A DNA stretch of 21,255 nt, taken from a virus. Every line of letters starts with the position of its first letter. Position 1 is the first letter of the stretch. Made by a program: the position numbers and the translations under genes. Below, piece after piece: positions 2,658 through 21,255 of the stretch. The DNA lies in the IMG/VR virus record IMGVR_UViG_3300035179_000074, positions 1 through 21,255 of that record. The stretch is one strand, 5' to 3'. The notes under the pieces are model-generated. The model did not search any database and was not told the origin of the DNA. It saw only the letters and a list, made by a program, of their open reading frames with translations.

Positions 2658-4073
2658 CTATGGGATGATGACCGTTGCTCGGGCCTCGCCGGAAATCCTG
2701 GCCGCGCCGACGCGCAGGTATCCGGCCCGGACAGAAGCCCGGGATGCGCCGGCGAGCCGGATCAGGGCCCAGTTGCCGGCGGGGAAGACCTCGACGATAC
2801 CCTCGCCCGCGATGGCGGCGGGGAAAGCGGCAACGGCGCCGGGGCCGAAAAACGCCGCTTCGCTTGTTACGCCCGTCCCGGCGAGGGCGGCCGGCCGCGC
2901 CGCAACGGCCCCCGCGCCGAGGAACTTGAGGGCGCCCGTACCGGCGAGGGCGGCGGGCGGCGCCGCAACGGCCCCCGCGCCGAGGAACTTGAGGGCGCCC
3001 GCACCGGCGAGGGCGGCGAGCTGGGCCGCGATGGCCCCCGCGCCGGAGAACACCTGTACGCCCGTCCCGGCGAGAGCGGCGAGTTGGGCCGCGATGGCCC
3101 CCGCGCCGGAGAACACCTGTACACCCGTGCCGGCGAGGGCGGCGGGCGGCGCCGCAACGGCCCCCGCGCCGAGAAACTTCAGCGCACCCGTCCCGGCCAG
3201 GGCGGCGGGGCTTCCGGCCACGGTGCCCGTGCCGGCGAATGTCTCGGCGCCCGTACCGGCGAGGGCGGCGGGCTGGGCGGCCACGGTCCCCGTCCCCGTG
3301 ATGCCGCCGCCCGCCGCCGCTCCGATCACACACAACCGCCTTCGCGGCGGCACGACGAGGCCGGAGAGCATGACGTTCGACGGGTCGGCGAGGGCGGCGA
3401 TCTCGGGGAGGGACAACACGCGATTGTAAAAGAGGGCATCCGCCAGCCGTCCGGTTCCATAACCATCACGGCCCACGCCCAGGAACGTGTGCGCCAACGA
3501 CCCTGTTATGTCATGTTCCGCCGTTGATGTTCCCCGGCCGAGAAGGTTTGCATTCAGATACACATACCTTTCGGTCGGACTGACGGCAATGGCGCAGAGA
3601 TGCCCCCACACTCCAGCACCGATTGTGTTGGTAGTCATGGCGGCCGCCGAACTTCCGCCGTGATACGCGACGAACCGGGCCGCACCGGAGGAGAGTTTGA
3701 GGAGCAGATAATACCCGATTTGATTCGCCGGGTTGAGCTGGTGCAGGCACATTGCTTCGCACGAGGTGCTAACGCCTCGTACCCAGCACGCCATCGTCGC
3801 GGGGAATCCATTGAGAACGGCCCCGGCGCGATACACATATTGAGAGGCCGTTGCAACGATATCCAGTGTCCACCGCCCCAGTTTTGGGTCGAACACCCAA
3901 TCCGTCAGCGGGTCCATGTTCGTCAGCGTGCCGTGGTTGCCCTTGCCGGACTCGTCACGGTATCGGGGGCTGTGGTGTGCCCGGCCGAGGCCGAGAAAGA
4001 CCGCCCCCCGGGCCCGGGGATGGCCCAGGTCGACGGTGAAGTGCTCCGGCCTTTGTGTTCGTGCTCGTCGCAT
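2658..4073 (-). CDS. LamG/concanavalin-like protein with Gly/Ala 21-residue repeats (fibre-like)
   Basis: A 471-residue protein in three parts. Residues about 35-235 look like a LamG/concanavalin-type beta-sandwich: a DESGKGNHGTL opening, a GFPATMACWVRG strand, a GHLCAIAVSPTERYVYLNA segment and a closing ADALFYNRVLSLPEIAAL motif, typical of carbohydrate- or surface-binding modules. Residues about 260-423 are some eight copies of a 21-residue Gly/Ala repeat of form GTGxxxFxGxGxxAxxxAALA. Residues 424-471 form a separate beta-rich tip. The ATG at 4073 follows directly on the TAA of the upstream gene, with no clear Shine-Dalgarno, so translational coupling is likely. The layout suggests a side fibre or tail appendage with a binding head and a repetitive shaft. 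The fold calls are pattern-based. Confidence 0.85.
   Translation of the reverse strand: MRRARTQRPEHFTVDLGHPRARGAVFLGLGRAHHSPRYRDESGKGNHGTLTNMDPLTDWVFDPKLGRWTLDIVATASQYVYRAGAVLNGFPATMACWVRGVSTSCEAMCLHQLNPANQIGYYLLLKLSSGAARFVAYHGGSSAAAMTTNTIGAGVWGHLCAIAVSPTERYVYLNANLLGRGTSTAEHDITGSLAHTFLGVGRDGYGTGRLADALFYNRVLSLPEIAALADPSNVMLSGLVVPPRRRLCVIGAAAGGGITGTGTVAAQPAALAGTGAETFAGTGTVAGSPAALAGTGALKFLGAGAVAAPPAALAGTGVQVFSGAGAIAAQLAALAGTGVQVFSGAGAIAAQLAALAGAGALKFLGAGAVAAPPAALAGTGALKFLGAGAVAARPAALAGTGVTSEAAFFGPGAVAAFPAAIAGEGIVEVFPAGNWALIRLAGASRASVRAGYLRVGAARISGEARATVIIP
2805..3296 (-). repeat. 63-bp tandem coding repeats
   Basis: About eight head-to-tail units encode the 21-residue Gly/Ala repeat of the LamG-type protein. 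Most units are exactly 63 bases; the last is 72 bases because of a three-residue insertion. Variants at the FxG position, from N to C terminus, read AETF, ALKF, VQVF, VQVF, ALKF, ALKF, then a VTSEAAFF form. The two VQVF units (3006-3131) are nearly identical at the DNA level, which suggests recent duplication. Confidence 0.9.
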
Positions 4074-12142: not shown

Positions 12143-12961
12143 TTAGCTCGGCAGTAGCGGGATCGTGTACCAGGTCGTCGCGTCGTAGGCGACGAAGATA
12201 GCCGAGACCTTGGCCGCGAGGGACATCGCTGTGTTGGCCCCGATGGCGTTGATGGCGTCGTCGGTGTTCGGGTAGACCTTCAGGATGGCATTCTCGCCGT
12301 CGCGATTCTTCACGACGCAGAGCTTGCCGGCGGCCGCCGCGGGCAGCTTGACGCCCTTGTTGGCGTCGGCCCCGGTGACGAGGGTGAAGCCCTCGGCGAT
12401 GAGGGTGGCCCCGGCCTGATCGGCGCCGGCGGCCGCGACCGTCGCCGAGGCGACGCCGACCACGCCGGCCCCGCTCAGCGTCAGCGGACCCGTCACTGGC
12501 TGGTCCTCGTAGGAATCGCCGTCGGCGATCAGGATGCGGCCCGCGGTGTAGAGCACCGCGCCGACGTCGCCCAGATCCGCGAGGGAGAGGGTCTCGGCGG
12601 CGCTCGATTCCACGCTCCGCAAGGCGAGGCGCACGGTGCTATCCGTGGCGGCCGTGATCTGGAGCGAGAAGCCCATGAACGTGTTGCCGGTGGCCGACGT
12701 GGTGGCGGCCCCGGTGCCGGGCGTGCCGCCCACGGGGTCGCCGTCGGCGTCCCAGTAGACCGCCCCGCCCACCGCGAAGACAACGGCGGCCTGGACGACG
12801 TCGAACACGCCCTCGACCGCGAGGCTGCCGAGCTTGCCCGCCGCGATGGCGAGCTTGGCGATGCCGACGAGCGCGGCGAGGATGACGACCTGGCCCGCGG
12901 CGACGTCCCCACCGGGCGTATAGTCGACGCTCCGGCCTTCCTGGACAAACGTGGCCTGCAT
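12143..12961 (-). CDS. DUF2190-type capsid accessory protein with C-terminal extension
   Basis: A 272-residue protein. Residues 1-115 match the DUF2190 pattern: MQATFVQEGRSVDYTPGGDV, hydrophobic strands and the AVYWDADGDPVGGTPGTGAA core. Such proteins sit next to the capsid gene in many phages and are thought to decorate or stabilise the head; the function is not settled. DUF2190 proteins are often near 110 residues, so residues 116-272 are an addition: a linker, then a beta-rich domain (EGFTLVTGADANKGVKLPAA, CVVKNRDGENAILKVYPN, AIFVAYDATTWYTIPLLPS) of the kind seen in phage appendage proteins. AAGGAG is 8 bases before the ATG at 12961. Confidence 0.82.
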   Translation of the reverse strand: MQATFVQEGRSVDYTPGGDVAAGQVVILAALVGIAKLAIAAGKLGSLAVEGVFDVVQAAVVFAVGGAVYWDADGDPVGGTPGTGAATTSATGNTFMGFSLQITAATDSTVRLALRSVESSAAETLSLADLGDVGAVLYTAGRILIADGDSYEDQPVTGPLTLSGAGVVGVASATVAAAGADQAGATLIAEGFTLVTGADANKGVKLPAAAAGKLCVVKNRDGENAILKVYPNTDDAINAIGANTAMSLAAKVSAIFVAYDATTWYTIPLLPS

Positions 12962-13109: not shown

Positions 13110-15545
13110 TTACACCTCGCCCTTCGCCTTCACGCCGCCCCTCGGGTCCTGGAGGGCGACGCCGAAATCGTGGTAGCCCCGCATCTGGATGCCGAGGAGG
13201 TTGAAGTCGGCCTCCGCGGTCTCGATGGTCGGCGCCTCCTTGCCGTCCAGGAAGGCGATCTCCACGACGGGCAGGTCGTTCGGGTCGGCGAGGAGATACC
13301 AGGCCTTGGCCGAGTTGCCGGGATACTTGGCGTTGGCCAGGTACCGGCTGACCTCGTTGCGGAACTTGCCCACGTGCGGGTTGGCGACGGGGTACTTCGT
13401 GGTGGCGGTCGTGTCCCTGATTTCCAGGGACTTGAAGAGCTGCGTGCCGGTCGCCGAGAGGGCCGTCGGCACGAGCAGGATCGCCGGCATGATGCCGGTG
13501 GGCTTCCCGTCCGCGTCGACCTGGTCCATGAAGAGGGCCTCCATCTTCGTGAGGCCGTCGATGGAGAGGGCCGTGTCGGCGCCGGCGAGGTAGTTCTTGT
13601 TGCCGGCGGCGAAGAACGCGCCGTTGTTCAGGAACACGGTCCAGAAGATGTCGTTGATCTTCGAGCCGCTGCCGCGGCCCAATTTCTTCGGCACCGTGGT
13701 GATGGCGCCGAGGTCGTCGTTGATCATGTCCCGCCGCGAGATGCCCAGCATCAGGGCATAGGTGTCGGCCTTGTTGGTGAACGGTTCCTCGCCGAGGGTG
13801 CCGTGCTTGATCTCGCCGGCCGGCCCGACGAGCTCGTACTGGTCCTTGCCGATCAGGCGGTAGGACGTCGCGGTCTTGAAGTCCGGGACGTTCCGCACGG
13901 CGCAGATGTTCCTCCAGGTCCGCTCGACGGCCATGAAGCCGTCCAGGAGGAACTTGTTGGCGACATTGGAGAGGATGCCGCCGATGTCGACGGTCGAGAA
14001 CGCCGCCTCGAGGCGGCTGGGACCGAAGGCGGCGATGAGGGCGCCATGGATGTCGCTGCGCAGGGTATGGCCGGTCCAACCGGCGGCGCGGGCGGTCACG
14101 ACGATGAGCTCGCCGAGGCCGAGGCCGTGGCGGAACCGGCGGCTCGCCCGCTCCAGCACCTCCGCCGAGTAGTGCGACTCGGGCTTGGTCAGCCCGCCGG
14201 CGAGGGCGAGGCCCGCCTCGAGCTCCAGGGACTGGGGCGGTGCGGGCGCCTGGGCCCGGCCCGGGTCGGGCGCCGTCATGCGGGCCCCGCGGACGAGGGC
14301 GAGCTCCGTGTCCCGAAGATTCCACCGCTTGTCGATGGCCTCGGTGGCGATGGCCTTGATCTCATCGATCCGGCCGGGGTTGCCGCGGAAGTAACCGAGG
14401 GCGAGCTCCTCGACGGCCTGGCGGCGCCGGTACTCGGCGGCTTCCTCGTCGATGCGGGCAAACTCGGTCCGGGCCCCGCCCTGGATCGGCGCCGCGGCGG
14501 GGGCGGGGGCCGGCGTGGGGGCCGGCGCCGGGGCCGGCGTGGCGTCCGGTTTCTTGCCGCCGGCGGGGTCAGCCTCCCAGGCGGCCTTCAGGTCCTTCTT
14601 TTGGGCGTCGGTGATCTTCGCGGCGTCCCACCCATGCTTCACGAGCCATGCATCGAAATCCATTGTCGTCCCTCCTGGGCCGGGTGCCGCGCTGGCGGCG
14701 ACCGTGACCTGTGTCCCTTCGTCCGCCCCGACCGCGACGACCGAAATTTCTCGCAGGCGGGCCTTTTTGACCTCGAATAGGCCCTTGGCGGTGGCCTTGA
14801 ATCGCCGGCCATTGGCCTCGAACTCACTTCCTTCCCCGTGCTCGACGACGGTGATGGCCTTGGCCCCAAGGGAGGCTTGCCAGGGGAAGCCTGCCTTGGC
14901 GCTGGCGACGAACTCGCGGCCGGCGTCGCTGTCCTGGACGCTCACCACGCCCTCGAGCTCGAGCTGGCCGCTTTGAACCGCCGGCGTGCCGTGGCCCACC
15001 GGAGTCGTGACGTCATGGTTGGCGAGGATGGGCATCGTCTTGGGCAAAGCGAGGCCGTCGAGGTGGATCACGACGGGGCGCCACCATCCCGCGAGGTCCA
15101 TTTCGACGCCGGTGTAGGCCACGATGTGGAGTCGGGGCAGGCGCTCGCCGGCGGCCGCGGCGGTGACCGAGACGGTGCCTGTCAGGGCGATGTCGCGGCC
15201 GTCATCGGCCGCGCTGGCCTCGCCGGTGGCCTCCTCGAAGGAAGCGTAGGGGTGCTCGTTGTCCTTGAGCCATTTACGGGCCTCATCGGCGGTCCACTTC
15301 GCGGTGTCAAAGCGCCATGCCTGGACGCTCCATCCCTCGCCCTTTAGGGGCCCGCCCAGGACGCGGATGCCGGCGGGGATCACCCACCCCTTCTTGCGCA
15401 TCGCCTTGGTGATATCGCGGACCCGGCGGAACAGGTCGGGTTCCTTGACGCGGGCCGCGTGCTCTGTGGGGTAGGGCATGGCCATGATCGGCGGCCACTG
15501 CCGATCGTCCGGCGGCCGGGCGGCATGCTCATTCGCGTCTGGCAT
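13110..15545 (-). CDS. Prohead protease fused in frame to major capsid protein
   Basis: An 811-residue protein joining two normally separate functions. Residues 1-110 are an N-terminal adapter (PYPTEHAAR; FDTAKWTADEARKWL). Residues 115-285 are a prohead-protease-like domain with PILANHDV (His177) and WQASLGAKA (Ser225), which fit the His/Ser pair of HK97-type proteases, and a LREISVVAVGA strand. Residues 295-360 are helix plus a Pro/Ala linker (TPAPAPAPTPAPAPAAAP) that could act as a scaffold arm. Residues 360-811 are the HK97-fold-type capsid part (LLDGFMAVERTWRNICAVRN, GEEPFTNKADTYALMLGISR, LPVVEIAFLDGKEAPTIETA). The start at 15545 overlaps the portal gene by 17 bases. An internal ATG at 14663 with its own AGGAGG would yield the 517-residue capsid part alone. 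The catalytic residues are assigned by pattern only. Confidence 0.88.
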   Translation of the reverse strand: MPDANEHAARPPDDRQWPPIMAMPYPTEHAARVKEPDLFRRVRDITKAMRKKGWVIPAGIRVLGGPLKGEGWSVQAWRFDTAKWTADEARKWLKDNEHPYASFEEATGEASAADDGRDIALTGTVSVTAAAAGERLPRLHIVAYTGVEMDLAGWWRPVVIHLDGLALPKTMPILANHDVTTPVGHGTPAVQSGQLELEGVVSVQDSDAGREFVASAKAGFPWQASLGAKAITVVEHGEGSEFEANGRRFKATAKGLFEVKKARLREISVVAVGADEGTQVTVAASAAPGPGGTTMDFDAWLVKHGWDAAKITDAQKKDLKAAWEADPAGGKKPDATPAPAPAPTPAPAPAAAPIQGGARTEFARIDEEAAEYRRRQAVEELALGYFRGNPGRIDEIKAIATEAIDKRWNLRDTELALVRGARMTAPDPGRAQAPAPPQSLELEAGLALAGGLTKPESHYSAEVLERASRRFRHGLGLGELIVVTARAAGWTGHTLRSDIHGALIAAFGPSRLEAAFSTVDIGGILSNVANKFLLDGFMAVERTWRNICAVRNVPDFKTATSYRLIGKDQYELVGPAGEIKHGTLGEEPFTNKADTYALMLGISRRDMINDDLGAITTVPKKLGRGSGSKINDIFWTVFLNNGAFFAAGNKNYLAGADTALSIDGLTKMEALFMDQVDADGKPTGIMPAILLVPTALSATGTQLFKSLEIRDTTATTKYPVANPHVGKFRNEVSRYLANAKYPGNSAKAWYLLADPNDLPVVEIAFLDGKEAPTIETAEADFNLLGIQMRGYHDFGVALQDPRGGVKAKGEV
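14661..14676 (-). promoter_or_regulatory. Internal ribosome site and start codon for the capsid part
   Basis: Inside the fused protease/capsid frame, AGGAGG (14671-14676, minus strand) lies 7 bases before an in-frame ATG at 14663, which begins MDFDAWLVKHGWDAAKITDA. This falls exactly at the junction between the protease domain and the capsid part, so two products from one frame are likely: an 811-residue fusion and an abundant 517-residue capsid precursor. Lambda C/Nu3 is an established precedent for an internal start in a protease frame. Confidence 0.65.
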
Positions 15546-17079
15546 GGCCGTCTCCGTTTCCGCCGCGCGCGGGGACCGTGTCCTCGTCATTTTCCCCGTC
15601 CTTGTCGTCGGCGGCCTTACCTGCCGGGGCGGGGGGTCCACCCTGTTCCGCTTTCTCCCAGGGTTGGGGGAGGCCGAACCGGGTGCGGGCCCTGGCCTCG
15701 CGGGCCCGCTGTTCCATTTCGGATTGCCAGTCGTAGCCTCGTCGGGCCTGGTAGCGGGCCTCGGTCTCCAGGCCGGCCGCGACGCGGTCGCTCTCGGCCT
15801 TGGTGATGCGAGGATCGATCTGCTCAAACCCTTCGAAGAACCAAACGTGGGGGTCTGCCTCATCCATCCAGGCCCCGGCCGGCAGGACATGCTCGATGCG
15901 CTTGGCCTCCGCGACCCAGGCGGCGAAGATGCGGTCGAGAACGTGGGCCGCTAGATGTGACTGCTCGATGACGATGCCGTGGCGGTAGAGGAGGCAATCC
16001 ATCTGCGCCGAAGACGCGGTATGCTGGGAGCTGTCGCATGCAGCTACCAGATAGGGCATGCCGAGGCAGCGCGGGATTTCCGAGAGAATCTGCCGCTTGA
16101 AGTCCCCGTAGGTGGTGGGGGGCTGTTCGGCCTTCACCTGGTTCAGGTCCCAGCCGGCCGGCAACGTGGTGAGCATGTTCCGTTCGAGCTCGATGAGGTC
16201 CATCGATTCGACCGGCTCCGCCTCGCCGTCGGGCGGGGCATCGGTATGCAGGACGGCGGCCCAGTCGGCGGCGGTCTCGGCCGCGGCGATCACGGCGAGG
16301 GTGTAGCGGCGAAGCTGGGCGAAGAGGGGCAGGGCGGGCAGCAGTTCCGGCAGGCCGCGGGACTGGCCGGGCCGATCGACGCGGAACCAGTGGATCATCA
16401 GATTCGCCGGCACGCGGTCGAAGTCAAGCGAGGCGAGGTCCGCCGGGTTGCCGGGGTGGGCCCTCAAGAGGTGGTACTCCCTGGGGTTGCCGTAGGGGTC
16501 GAAGCGGATGCCGTCGACGGCGCTCGGCGCCCAATAGGGCAGGCCCGGCGTGGCGATCTGGTCCGCCTCGATAAGCCTGATGTCGAGCTGGACCCCCGTG
16601 GGCAGCGCGGGGTTCGTGACGAGGAGGGCGAAGGCCTCGCCATCCTGCGCCCGGGCCATCCGCATGGTGCGTAGCTTCTCGGCGAGGCGGACCGCCTTGG
16701 CCCAGGTCTCAAACTCCTTTTCAATGGCCGCGTTGGCCGCGGCGTCCTGGAGCAGCATCTGGAGCCGGGGTCCCGAACCGACGAGGTCGTTGGCGAGCGT
16801 GAGGATGATGCCGCGGGCATAGGAATTGTTGGCGACCTCGTACCTGGCCCGGGCCCGCAGGACGCGCCGGACCTCCGGCGTGGCGGCGGCGTCGGGTGAG
16901 AGGAGATCGGCATTGAGCCAGTGGCGCGCGTTCTCGCCGCTGGTCTGTGCCGCGTCGTACCGGGCCCGCATGTCGTGAAGGCGCGCCCGGGTGAAGGCCG
17001 CGAGCTGGTGGCCTGGCGGGCGGGGCCGCTCCGAGAGGCGGCGGGGCGAACGGCCCAGGAGGCGGTCAAGGAATTTCAT
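15529..17079 (-). CDS. Portal protein (lambda portal family)
   Basis: A 516-residue protein, close to the 533 residues of lambda gpB. It has the lambda-type portal sequence: RARARYEVANNSYARGIILT then LVGSGPRLQML near the N terminus, AQDGEAFALLVTNP, RLIEADQI, NLMIHWFRVDRPGQSRGLPE in the middle and a YGDFKRQILSEIPRCLGMPY segment. The C-terminal 60 residues are charged and disordered. It forms the dodecameric ring through which DNA enters and leaves the head. The ATG at 17079 shares its A with the TGA of the gpW-like gene (TGATG); a GTG one codon earlier is also possible. It is followed at once by the protease/capsid gene. Confidence 0.92.
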   Translation of the reverse strand: MKFLDRLLGRSPRRLSERPRPPGHQLAAFTRARLHDMRARYDAAQTSGENARHWLNADLLSPDAAATPEVRRVLRARARYEVANNSYARGIILTLANDLVGSGPRLQMLLQDAAANAAIEKEFETWAKAVRLAEKLRTMRMARAQDGEAFALLVTNPALPTGVQLDIRLIEADQIATPGLPYWAPSAVDGIRFDPYGNPREYHLLRAHPGNPADLASLDFDRVPANLMIHWFRVDRPGQSRGLPELLPALPLFAQLRRYTLAVIAAAETAADWAAVLHTDAPPDGEAEPVESMDLIELERNMLTTLPAGWDLNQVKAEQPPTTYGDFKRQILSEIPRCLGMPYLVAACDSSQHTASSAQMDCLLYRHGIVIEQSHLAAHVLDRIFAAWVAEAKRIEHVLPAGAWMDEADPHVWFFEGFEQIDPRITKAESDRVAAGLETEARYQARRGYDWQSEMEQRAREARARTRFGLPQPWEKAEQGGPPAPAGKAADDKDGENDEDTVPARGGNGDGHARRE

Positions 17080-17276
17080 CACACGGCCCCCGGGGGCGAT
17101 ATCTTCTGCAGTCGCAGGCCGCGGCGGTTGTTGGCGACGGCCGTGGCGCTTCGCAGATAGCGATCCGCCTCGATTTGGTCCCTGGGGGGATGCTGCTGGA
17201 AGCTAACCTGGTCACCGGAGGCGCGGGACGGGCCGGCGGCGTTCTCGCGGATGGCGTCGGTCAGGTCATCGGCCAC
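17079..17276 (-). CDS. gpW-like head-to-tail joining protein
   Basis: A 65-residue protein, close to lambda gpW (68 residues), starting VADDLTDAIRENAAGPSRAS and ending with DQIEADRYLRSATAVANNRR and GLRLQKISPPGAV. The DQIxADxYL ... RGLRxxxxxPPG pattern is typical of the gpW family, which joins the filled head to the tail. GTG at 17276 is chosen because GAGGGG lies 5 bases before it; a longer in-frame ORF to 17351 would read through the terminator hairpin and is not protein-like there. It lies next to the portal gene as in lambda (W then B). Confidence 0.87.
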   Translation of the reverse strand: MADDLTDAIRENAAGPSRASGDQVSFQQHPPRDQIEADRYLRSATAVANNRRGLRLQKISPPGAV

Positions 17277-20288: not shown

Positions 20289-20972
20289 TCAGCGCTGGAC
20301 CAGGGCGTCCTCGATGAAGGTGACGAAGAACTCATAGAGCCGGCGGTCGCGGGTGATCTGGACCTGCTCGTAGGCGTGGCACCGGCGGAGGTTGAGGCTG
20401 CCGTGGATCACGATCTCCGTGCCGTTGTCCATGCGCATGGCCATGACCTTGGTGTGGTTGCGGTTCGCGGTGTATCGCCAGCCGCGGCGGTTGAACTCCT
20501 GGGCGATGAAGAGCCAGACATCGGCATCCTTCTCCGCGAAGACCTCGGATACCACCAGGGCGCAGCGACCGATCGTCGGGCCGTCCAGGAGGGTGCCGTC
20601 GCCCAGGCCGAGGAGGTGCTGGACGTGCGTCTTGTTTATGGACATCGTGCTCAGGTGGGCCTCGATGCACCTGGCGGGGAGGGCGAGGCGGAGGCAGGTC
20701 GTCAGCAGGTCGAAGCCGTGAAAGGTGCCGTCCAGGATGAGGGCGATCTCCTCGCCGGCGGCGGGCAGCCGGCCGATGACCTCGAGGGCGCGGTCCTCGC
20801 GCAGCAGCCGGCGGGTGTGGCGGATCGCCGGCTCGGCGAACGCGCCGGCCCGGGCCCTCAGCGGGCCGATGGCGCGGCGGGTGCCGTCGCGGTTGTACTC
20901 GCCTTCGAAGGTGTCCTGGCCGCCGCCGGGGTCCAGGATCGAGTCGATCAGGAAATCCTCATCATCGCCCAT
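20289..20972 (-). CDS. Phospholipase D-like phosphodiesterase family protein
   Basis: A 227-residue protein with one PLD-type motif: NHTKVMAM (His173, Lys175), Asp182 and IHGSLNLRRC (Gly191-Ser192-x-Asn194). In the usual HxKxxxxD...GSxN motif the Asp is two residues nearer; here it is at +9 from His, so the motif is slightly degenerate. Upstream, residues 75-110 (EEIALILDGTFHGFDLLTTC, then EAHLSTMSI) form strand-helix units of the fold. A single motif implies a dimeric nuclease or phosphodiesterase, or a catalytically weakened binder. I recall similar proteins beside phage terminase genes, without a proven role. The start overlaps the upstream ORF by 11 bases; the ribosome site is weak. Confidence 0.75.
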   Translation of the reverse strand: MGDDEDFLIDSILDPGGGQDTFEGEYNRDGTRRAIGPLRARAGAFAEPAIRHTRRLLREDRALEVIGRLPAAGEEIALILDGTFHGFDLLTTCLRLALPARCIEAHLSTMSINKTHVQHLLGLGDGTLLDGPTIGRCALVVSEVFAEKDADVWLFIAQEFNRRGWRYTANRNHTKVMAMRMDNGTEIVIHGSLNLRRCHAYEQVQITRDRRLYEFFVTFIEDALVQR

Positions 20973-21255
20973 GGGTGGCGCTCGCCCTGCGTTCGCGGGC
21001 CCGCAGGATGTCCCTTTGGTGGTGCCCCGGCCGCCGGCCAAGGAGGCGGCGGGCGAGGCGCAGTTTCTTGCGGCAGCGCGCGAACTGGGTCAGGCGCTGC
21101 GGCGGGAGGCGATCCGCGACTTGGGTCGCGCGTCGGCGGGCCGTGGCGGGGCGAACGCCGGCGCGGAGCATGGCCTCCTCGAGGGCGTGCTCTGCGGCGG
21201 TCCAGCCGGGAAGGTCGCGGGGCGGATCGGGGCGTGGTTCCCCGAAGGCCGCTGC
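20962..21255 (-). CDS. Basic protein, C-terminal fragment (runs off the right edge)
   Basis: The last 97 residues of a frame open to the window edge. The visible part starts AAAFGEPRPDPPRDLPGWTA, includes AEHALEEAMLRAGVRPATAR and is strongly Arg-rich towards the end (LARRLLGRRPGHHQRDILRA). An internal ATG at 21171 exists, but the frame reads on upstream with protein-like sequence (GWTAAEHALEEA), so the gene probably begins outside the window. Its end overlaps the PLD-like gene by 11 bases, suggesting coupling. No domain is recognised; a small nucleic-acid-binding phage protein is possible. Confidence 0.55.
   Translation of the reverse strand, partial: AAAFGEPRPDPPRDLPGWTAAEHALEEAMLRAGVRPATARRRATQVADRLPPQRLTQFARCRKKLRLARRLLGRRPGHHQRDILRARERRASATHGR

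Follow-up and report, generated by a model that had tools for sequence, protein, structure and literature searches.

How does a fused head gene yield shell subunits by the hundred yet little protease? The question is raised by an 811-codon frame in IMG/VR virus record IMGVR_UViG_3300035179_000074, which was analysed whole as a window of 21,255 bases. On the minus strand of the window, terminase, portal, the 811-codon frame, a cement protein and a head-tail joining protein follow one another in that order. The frame (15545-13110, minus strand) is open throughout and codes for an N-terminal region, an S78-type prohead protease, scaffold-like helices and an HK97-fold major capsid protein. Its start is overlapped for 17 nt by the end of the portal gene (15529-17082, minus strand; PF05136, E 2e-55), and the gene of a capsid cement or decoration protein lies downstream (12143-12961, minus strand; PF09956, E 3.6e-20). 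Elsewhere in the window, a 63-bp tandem repeat of 6.7 copies (2870-3292) falls within a minus-strand ORF (2658-4073) bearing a Laminin_G_3 domain, possibly a variable surface or tail protein. Upstream of the terminase genes, a phospholipase-D-like stretch, HTKVMAMRMDNGTEIVIHGSLNL, was spotted by eye in the ORF at 20289-21041 (minus strand), for which there was no Pfam match.

An earlier note on this DNA had claimed that protease and capsid occupy the single 811-codon frame, with AGGAGG 7 nt before an in-frame ATG at residue 295; coordinates and spacing were both verified. We consider it very probable that the frame is a nested in-frame gene pair, which would yield an 811-aa protease-scaffold-capsid protein and, from the internal start, a 517-aa scaffold-capsid protein.

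Domain organization of the fusion protein

The 811-aa protein matched PHROG 4523 in a profile search (E 2.1e-64) and, over residues 169-809, NF045541 (263 bits, E 4.9e-78); it is a divergent relative of the latter, formally under the curated cut-off of 525 bits. An S78-type protease and a PF25209 capsid are both present in the single frame. Residues 1-119 (15189-15545, minus strand) had no Pfam match. This N-terminus resembles the fusions of two phages, S-CBS1 of Synechococcus (residues 13-119) and CRP-821 of Roseobacter (residues 24-109), with E 3e-7 each, and the alignment of most close homologues to the 811-aa query begins only at about residue 80-140.

The protease domain (residues 138-283; 14697-15134, minus strand) is of the herpesvirus-assemblin/T4 gp21-like kind, with Peptidase_S78 and TIGR01543 matches and an AlphaFold pLDDT of about 90. 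The HMM match is weak (S78, 19.4 bits against a cut-off of 21) and the fold evidence is better: Foldseek matched the protease part to pUL26N and the HCMV protease (E 1.8e-3) and, much more weakly, to T4 gp21. H177, S225 and E266 are invariant across the homologue alignment and likely constitute the catalytic set of the protease. Since the protease profile match stops at residue 281-284, the confident AlphaFold protease model stops at 283 and residues 285-294 are disordered in the prediction, the start at residue 295 falls exactly at the boundary.

The earlier note was correct in placing this start where the protease domain ends, but the capsid arm, which it had expected to begin there, does not; what begins is a scaffold/delta-like helical segment (about residues 295-440; 14226-14663, minus strand), in which AlphaFold secondary structure and pLDDT give helices at 297-325 and 359-421 with an Ala/Pro linker between them. 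The model suggests a scaffold role for this segment. The shell fold proper begins at about residue 460-515, and the HK97-fold capsid region (residues 460-811; 13113-14168, minus strand) matched PF25209 with 145.9 bits against a cut-off of 27 (E 3.5e-42). Because the capsid region was poor in the full-length model, a capsid-only AlphaFold model was built (pLDDT 77.9), which gave Foldseek matches (E 1e-10 to 1e-8) to capsids including those of HK97 and phiCD508. Among solved structures, no chain was near enough to show the mature capsid N-terminus.

Two candidate starts in one frame

The internal Shine-Dalgarno sequence (SD), AGGAGG at 14676-14671 (minus strand), stands 7 nt ahead of the ATG codon of residue 295 (14663-14661, minus strand), whose column is conserved in homologues. 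From this codon runs a nested ORF of 517 aa (13110-14663, minus strand), comprising the scaffold-like segment and the major capsid protein, which is predicted to encode the main shell subunit precursor. At -10.8 kcal/mol, the SD is the strongest among all in-frame starts of the ORF (residue 1, -6.6), and the inner start codon is also predicted to be less paired than the outer one. In codon shuffles of the ORF, AGGAGG followed by an in-frame ATG within 4-10 nt arose somewhere in 8%, but in only 2 of 2000 shuffles did it lie no more than 15 codons from residue 295.

If both starts are used, ribosomes starting at 15545 would produce the 811-aa protease-scaffold-capsid fusion, and those starting at the internal SD and ATG (14663) would produce the 517-aa scaffold-capsid protein. 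The two products share the C-terminal shell subunit and therefore should co-assemble, and through the shared shell domain the protease would enter the procapsid as part of the fusion, needing no targeting signal of its own. Once assembly is complete, protease cleavage would remove the scaffold segments and the protease itself. We infer that the 517-aa form is in the majority, that the two forms co-assemble, that cleavage removes the scaffold, and that particles contain some of the long form; the few fusion molecules, the fixed ratio of protease to capsid and the protease within the shell that the earlier note envisaged would be predictions of the same kind. In the virion proteome of phage B8b, a related fusion was detected abundantly, with 42.7% coverage and 937 spectra, reported without peptide positions (PMC4294664).

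The ratio could also be the opposite, with the inner start used mainly for extra scaffold-capsid protein, the long form as principal product and the protease abundant, which we hold to be unlikely. The relative strength of the outer and inner SDs differs by family: in the F10 family the outer one is on average stronger (-8.2 against -6.5), as abundant protease would have it, whereas the inner one is stronger in the window and in the RcOceanus family. SD strength is no consistent guide to the protease:capsid ratio across families. Established head-assembly systems use sub-stoichiometric protease, which argues against an abundant long form; in herpesviruses, for example, scaffold from the protease-bearing form makes up about 10% of the total (PMC12474303).

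Conservation of the probable internal start in close homologues

The close-homologue set comprised 80 IMG/VR loci at 52-56% identity, every one of them fused in one frame. Homologues lacking the AGGAGG/ATG pair, which the earlier note had named as evidence that would count against an internal start, were looked for, and the proposal withstood the comparison: ATG, GTG or TTG occupies the Met295 position in 75 of the 80, usually with an SD. The residues flanking this column vary and gap freely on both sides. When start codons were counted column by column, with an SD at least as strong as -6 kcal/mol required, the junction column had them in 68 of 79 sequences versus 33 at the next-best column, and with one representative per 80%-identity group the counts were 32 of 37 versus 14; the next-best column is probably the true gene start of the homologues.

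The codons themselves were also informative. Valine at the junction column is encoded by GTG in all 10 of its occurrences, against a GTG background of 41%, and TTG stands in for ATG once. Synonymous recoding of the upstream codons with each gene's own codon usage gave a mean junction SD of -6.18 ± 0.24 in the window family, against the observed mean of -7.67, which was reached by 0 of 300 recodings. The SD occupies two codon registers in the window family, mostly 5-8 nt ahead of the start, and two or three registers across families, with a spacing mostly of 4-8 nt. Because the register shifts while the spacing holds, the conserved element is a nucleotide signal and not a peptide.

Several sequences depart from the pattern. 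Two loci (L069 and L077) have CTG after the SD at the junction, one (L044) has its SD and a GTG five codons further downstream, and two (L045 and L065) have a junction ATG without an SD; the L025/L030 lineage has no candidate start at the junction. In a codon-identity scan for synonymous constraint, which was not computable for the window family, the junction was no outlier (ranks 139/712 and 241/748). The targeted recoding test was used instead, because the SD covers no more than about two codons and the residues around it vary too much. The homologue search with the window used six peptides, of which one (TTMDFDAW) spans the junction; selection bias from this peptide was considered and rejected, since it is absent from every listed homologue.

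It is very unlikely, in our view, that only the long protein is made, with the protease cleaving itself at the junction and the conserved Met being a protein feature or the relic of a cleavage site. Such a reading agrees with a protease presumably able to act in cis, with the annotation of the fusions as single proteins, and with the MD8 paper, which places protease, scaffold and capsid in one gene and reports a single-gene product with three domains (PMC8508860). It is at odds, however, with a junction Val that is always GTG and a TTG once in place of ATG, with an SD that is stronger than synonymous recoding gives and lies in differing codon registers, and with flanking residues that are not conserved, unlike those of a cleavage motif; in addition, it demands protease and shell protein at 1:1.

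Candidate internal starts in other fusion families

A candidate start with an SD at the junction is conserved in at least five families. F10-type fusions, which carry an unrelated ClpP-like protease, have the junction ATG in 80 of 80 aligned sequences and in 12 of 12 representatives (9 with an SD), and the observed SD was matched by 0 of 300 synonymous recodings. For the RcOceanus-type (Rhodobacter-type) S78 fusions the corresponding values were 78 of 78 and, again, 0 of 300. Among prophages of sequenced genomes, 44 frames were aligned, of which 40 have a start codon at the junction; split loci account for some of the non-ATG cases. The capsid of CRP-821-type fusions belongs to another family, PF05065 (HK97 capsid); the junction ATG was found in 18 of 19 representatives, 15 of them with an SD, and the SD was -8.1 as observed and -3.4 after recoding (0/200). 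An SD-preceded ATG was also located just past the protease in all five fusions from four Microbacterium phages and Curtobacterium phage Barebow. The S-CBS1 fusion had no clear internal SD and start at the junction.

The search peptides of the F10 and RcOceanus scans included no junction peptide. One peptide of the CRP-821 scan (MTEEVKKD) begins at the junction Met, and bias from it was discounted, as it is present in only 2 of the 19 representatives.

The junction start is shared by fusions with unrelated proteases (ClpP or S78) and by two capsid Pfam families. In profile comparison, homology between ClpP-type and S78-type fusions began about 25-40 residues beyond the junction start and did not extend upstream of that point; the inner product thus behaves as the evolutionary module, with the protease as an exchangeable part.

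Some prophage frames are interrupted. The protease and capsid frames are split in four RcOceanus-related prophages (L378, L380, L382 and L385); in L378 and L382 the protease stop is followed after about 90 nt by a candidate capsid start with an SD, and none was seen in L380 and L385. In five further prophage loci (L340, L356, L366, L369 and L377), the fusion frame is broken outside the junction by a stop or a frameshift, and these are either decayed prophages or sequencing errors.

Split and fused genes in the FP_Epona family

The family of Faecalibacterium phage FP_Epona resembles the window in its homologous capsid, S78 protease and gene order, but differs in having mostly two separate genes, with fused members rare: among 80 loci, protease and capsid are separate genes in 70 and fused in 4, the other 6 having given no protease match. 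The nested 517-aa ORF of the window is the counterpart of the separate capsid gene in these phages. On the family tree, the split and fused states must have interchanged at least three times, the direction of each change not being set by the tree alone. All 4 fused members keep an ATG with an SD of -11.6 to -12.6 at the former capsid start, which indicates that the signal used to start a separate capsid gene is retained within the fused frame as an internal start. That the internal start is only a vestige of a fused ancestral capsid gene, not yet decayed, would suit the repeated changes between states and the coincidence of the junction with the capsid start of split relatives, but is extremely improbable, because the window family at 52-56% identity retains start and SD despite turnover of the surrounding residues, a divergence at which decay would be expected.

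Taken together with the occurrence in at least five families and with SDs in different codon registers, the capsid start of split relatives at the same site means that comparative genomics strongly supports what the earlier note had proposed, a real internal start making capsid protein within the fusion frame. At the level of sequence, the two-start architecture and its conservation are established.

Relation to known systems and significance

In lambda C/Nu3 and Mu I/Z, an in-frame internal start at the protease/scaffold boundary gives a C-terminally identical second product in excess. The lambda precedent cited in the earlier note is apt, for in the window, too, a ribosome-binding site and an in-frame internal start mark the protease boundary, and relatives conserve them. 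However, the inner product of lambda and Mu is scaffold only and the shell protein has its own gene, whereas the inner product of the window combines scaffold and shell, its frame running to the end of the HK97-fold capsid; moreover, lambda C is not an S78 protease, unlike the protease of the window. Herpesvirus UL26/UL26.5 (UL80/UL80.5) is an equally close parallel, with the same protease fold (Foldseek) and a nested gene giving a product without protease, but there too the nested gene yields scaffold alone, with the shell protein encoded by a gene of its own, and the inner start is not SD-driven. HK97 gp4/gp5 resembles the window in its HK97-fold capsid with an N-terminal scaffold-like (delta) domain and in the protease immediately upstream, and in the models of the window protein a helical N-terminal domain precedes the HK97 fold. 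In HK97, however, protease (gp4) and capsid (gp5) are two genes, whereas the window has a single 811-codon frame with a nested start.

The protease/capsid fusion itself is already known (NCBIfam NF045540/NF045541). Fusions of the NF045541, NF045540 and PHROG 4523 groups (MD8, F10, Gifsy-2, RcOceanus, Microbacterium cluster EE) have the same architecture as the window, and the capsid of the Proteobacteria-phage fusions is homologous to that of the window. These have been annotated and published as one fusion protein, as in the 'major capsid and protease fusion' of Microbacterium phage annotation, whereas we read the window as a nested two-start gene. Among the open-access papers searched, none was found to describe an internal capsid start in protease-capsid fusions, so that priority is uncertain. 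The novel part would be the internal start, probably working like those of lambda C/Nu3 and UL26/UL26.5, with an inner product that also carries the shell protein.

More generally, it seems fairly probable that nesting with two products is the rule for the protease-capsid fusion genes of tailed phages, that recurrent fusion is tolerated thanks to an ancestral capsid start that stays in frame, and that the fusion doses and targets the protease as a rare isoform of the shell subunit. If this is true, most genomes of this kind carry a mis-annotated capsid protein. The nested start would explain how a single fused gene meets the unequal demand for shell and protease, and it would extend the nested protease logic of lambda and the herpesviruses to the shell protein itself. 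The prediction is that, for many phages, the N-terminus of the main capsid protein is wrong in the databases, with consequences for proteomics, capsid engineering and structure work.
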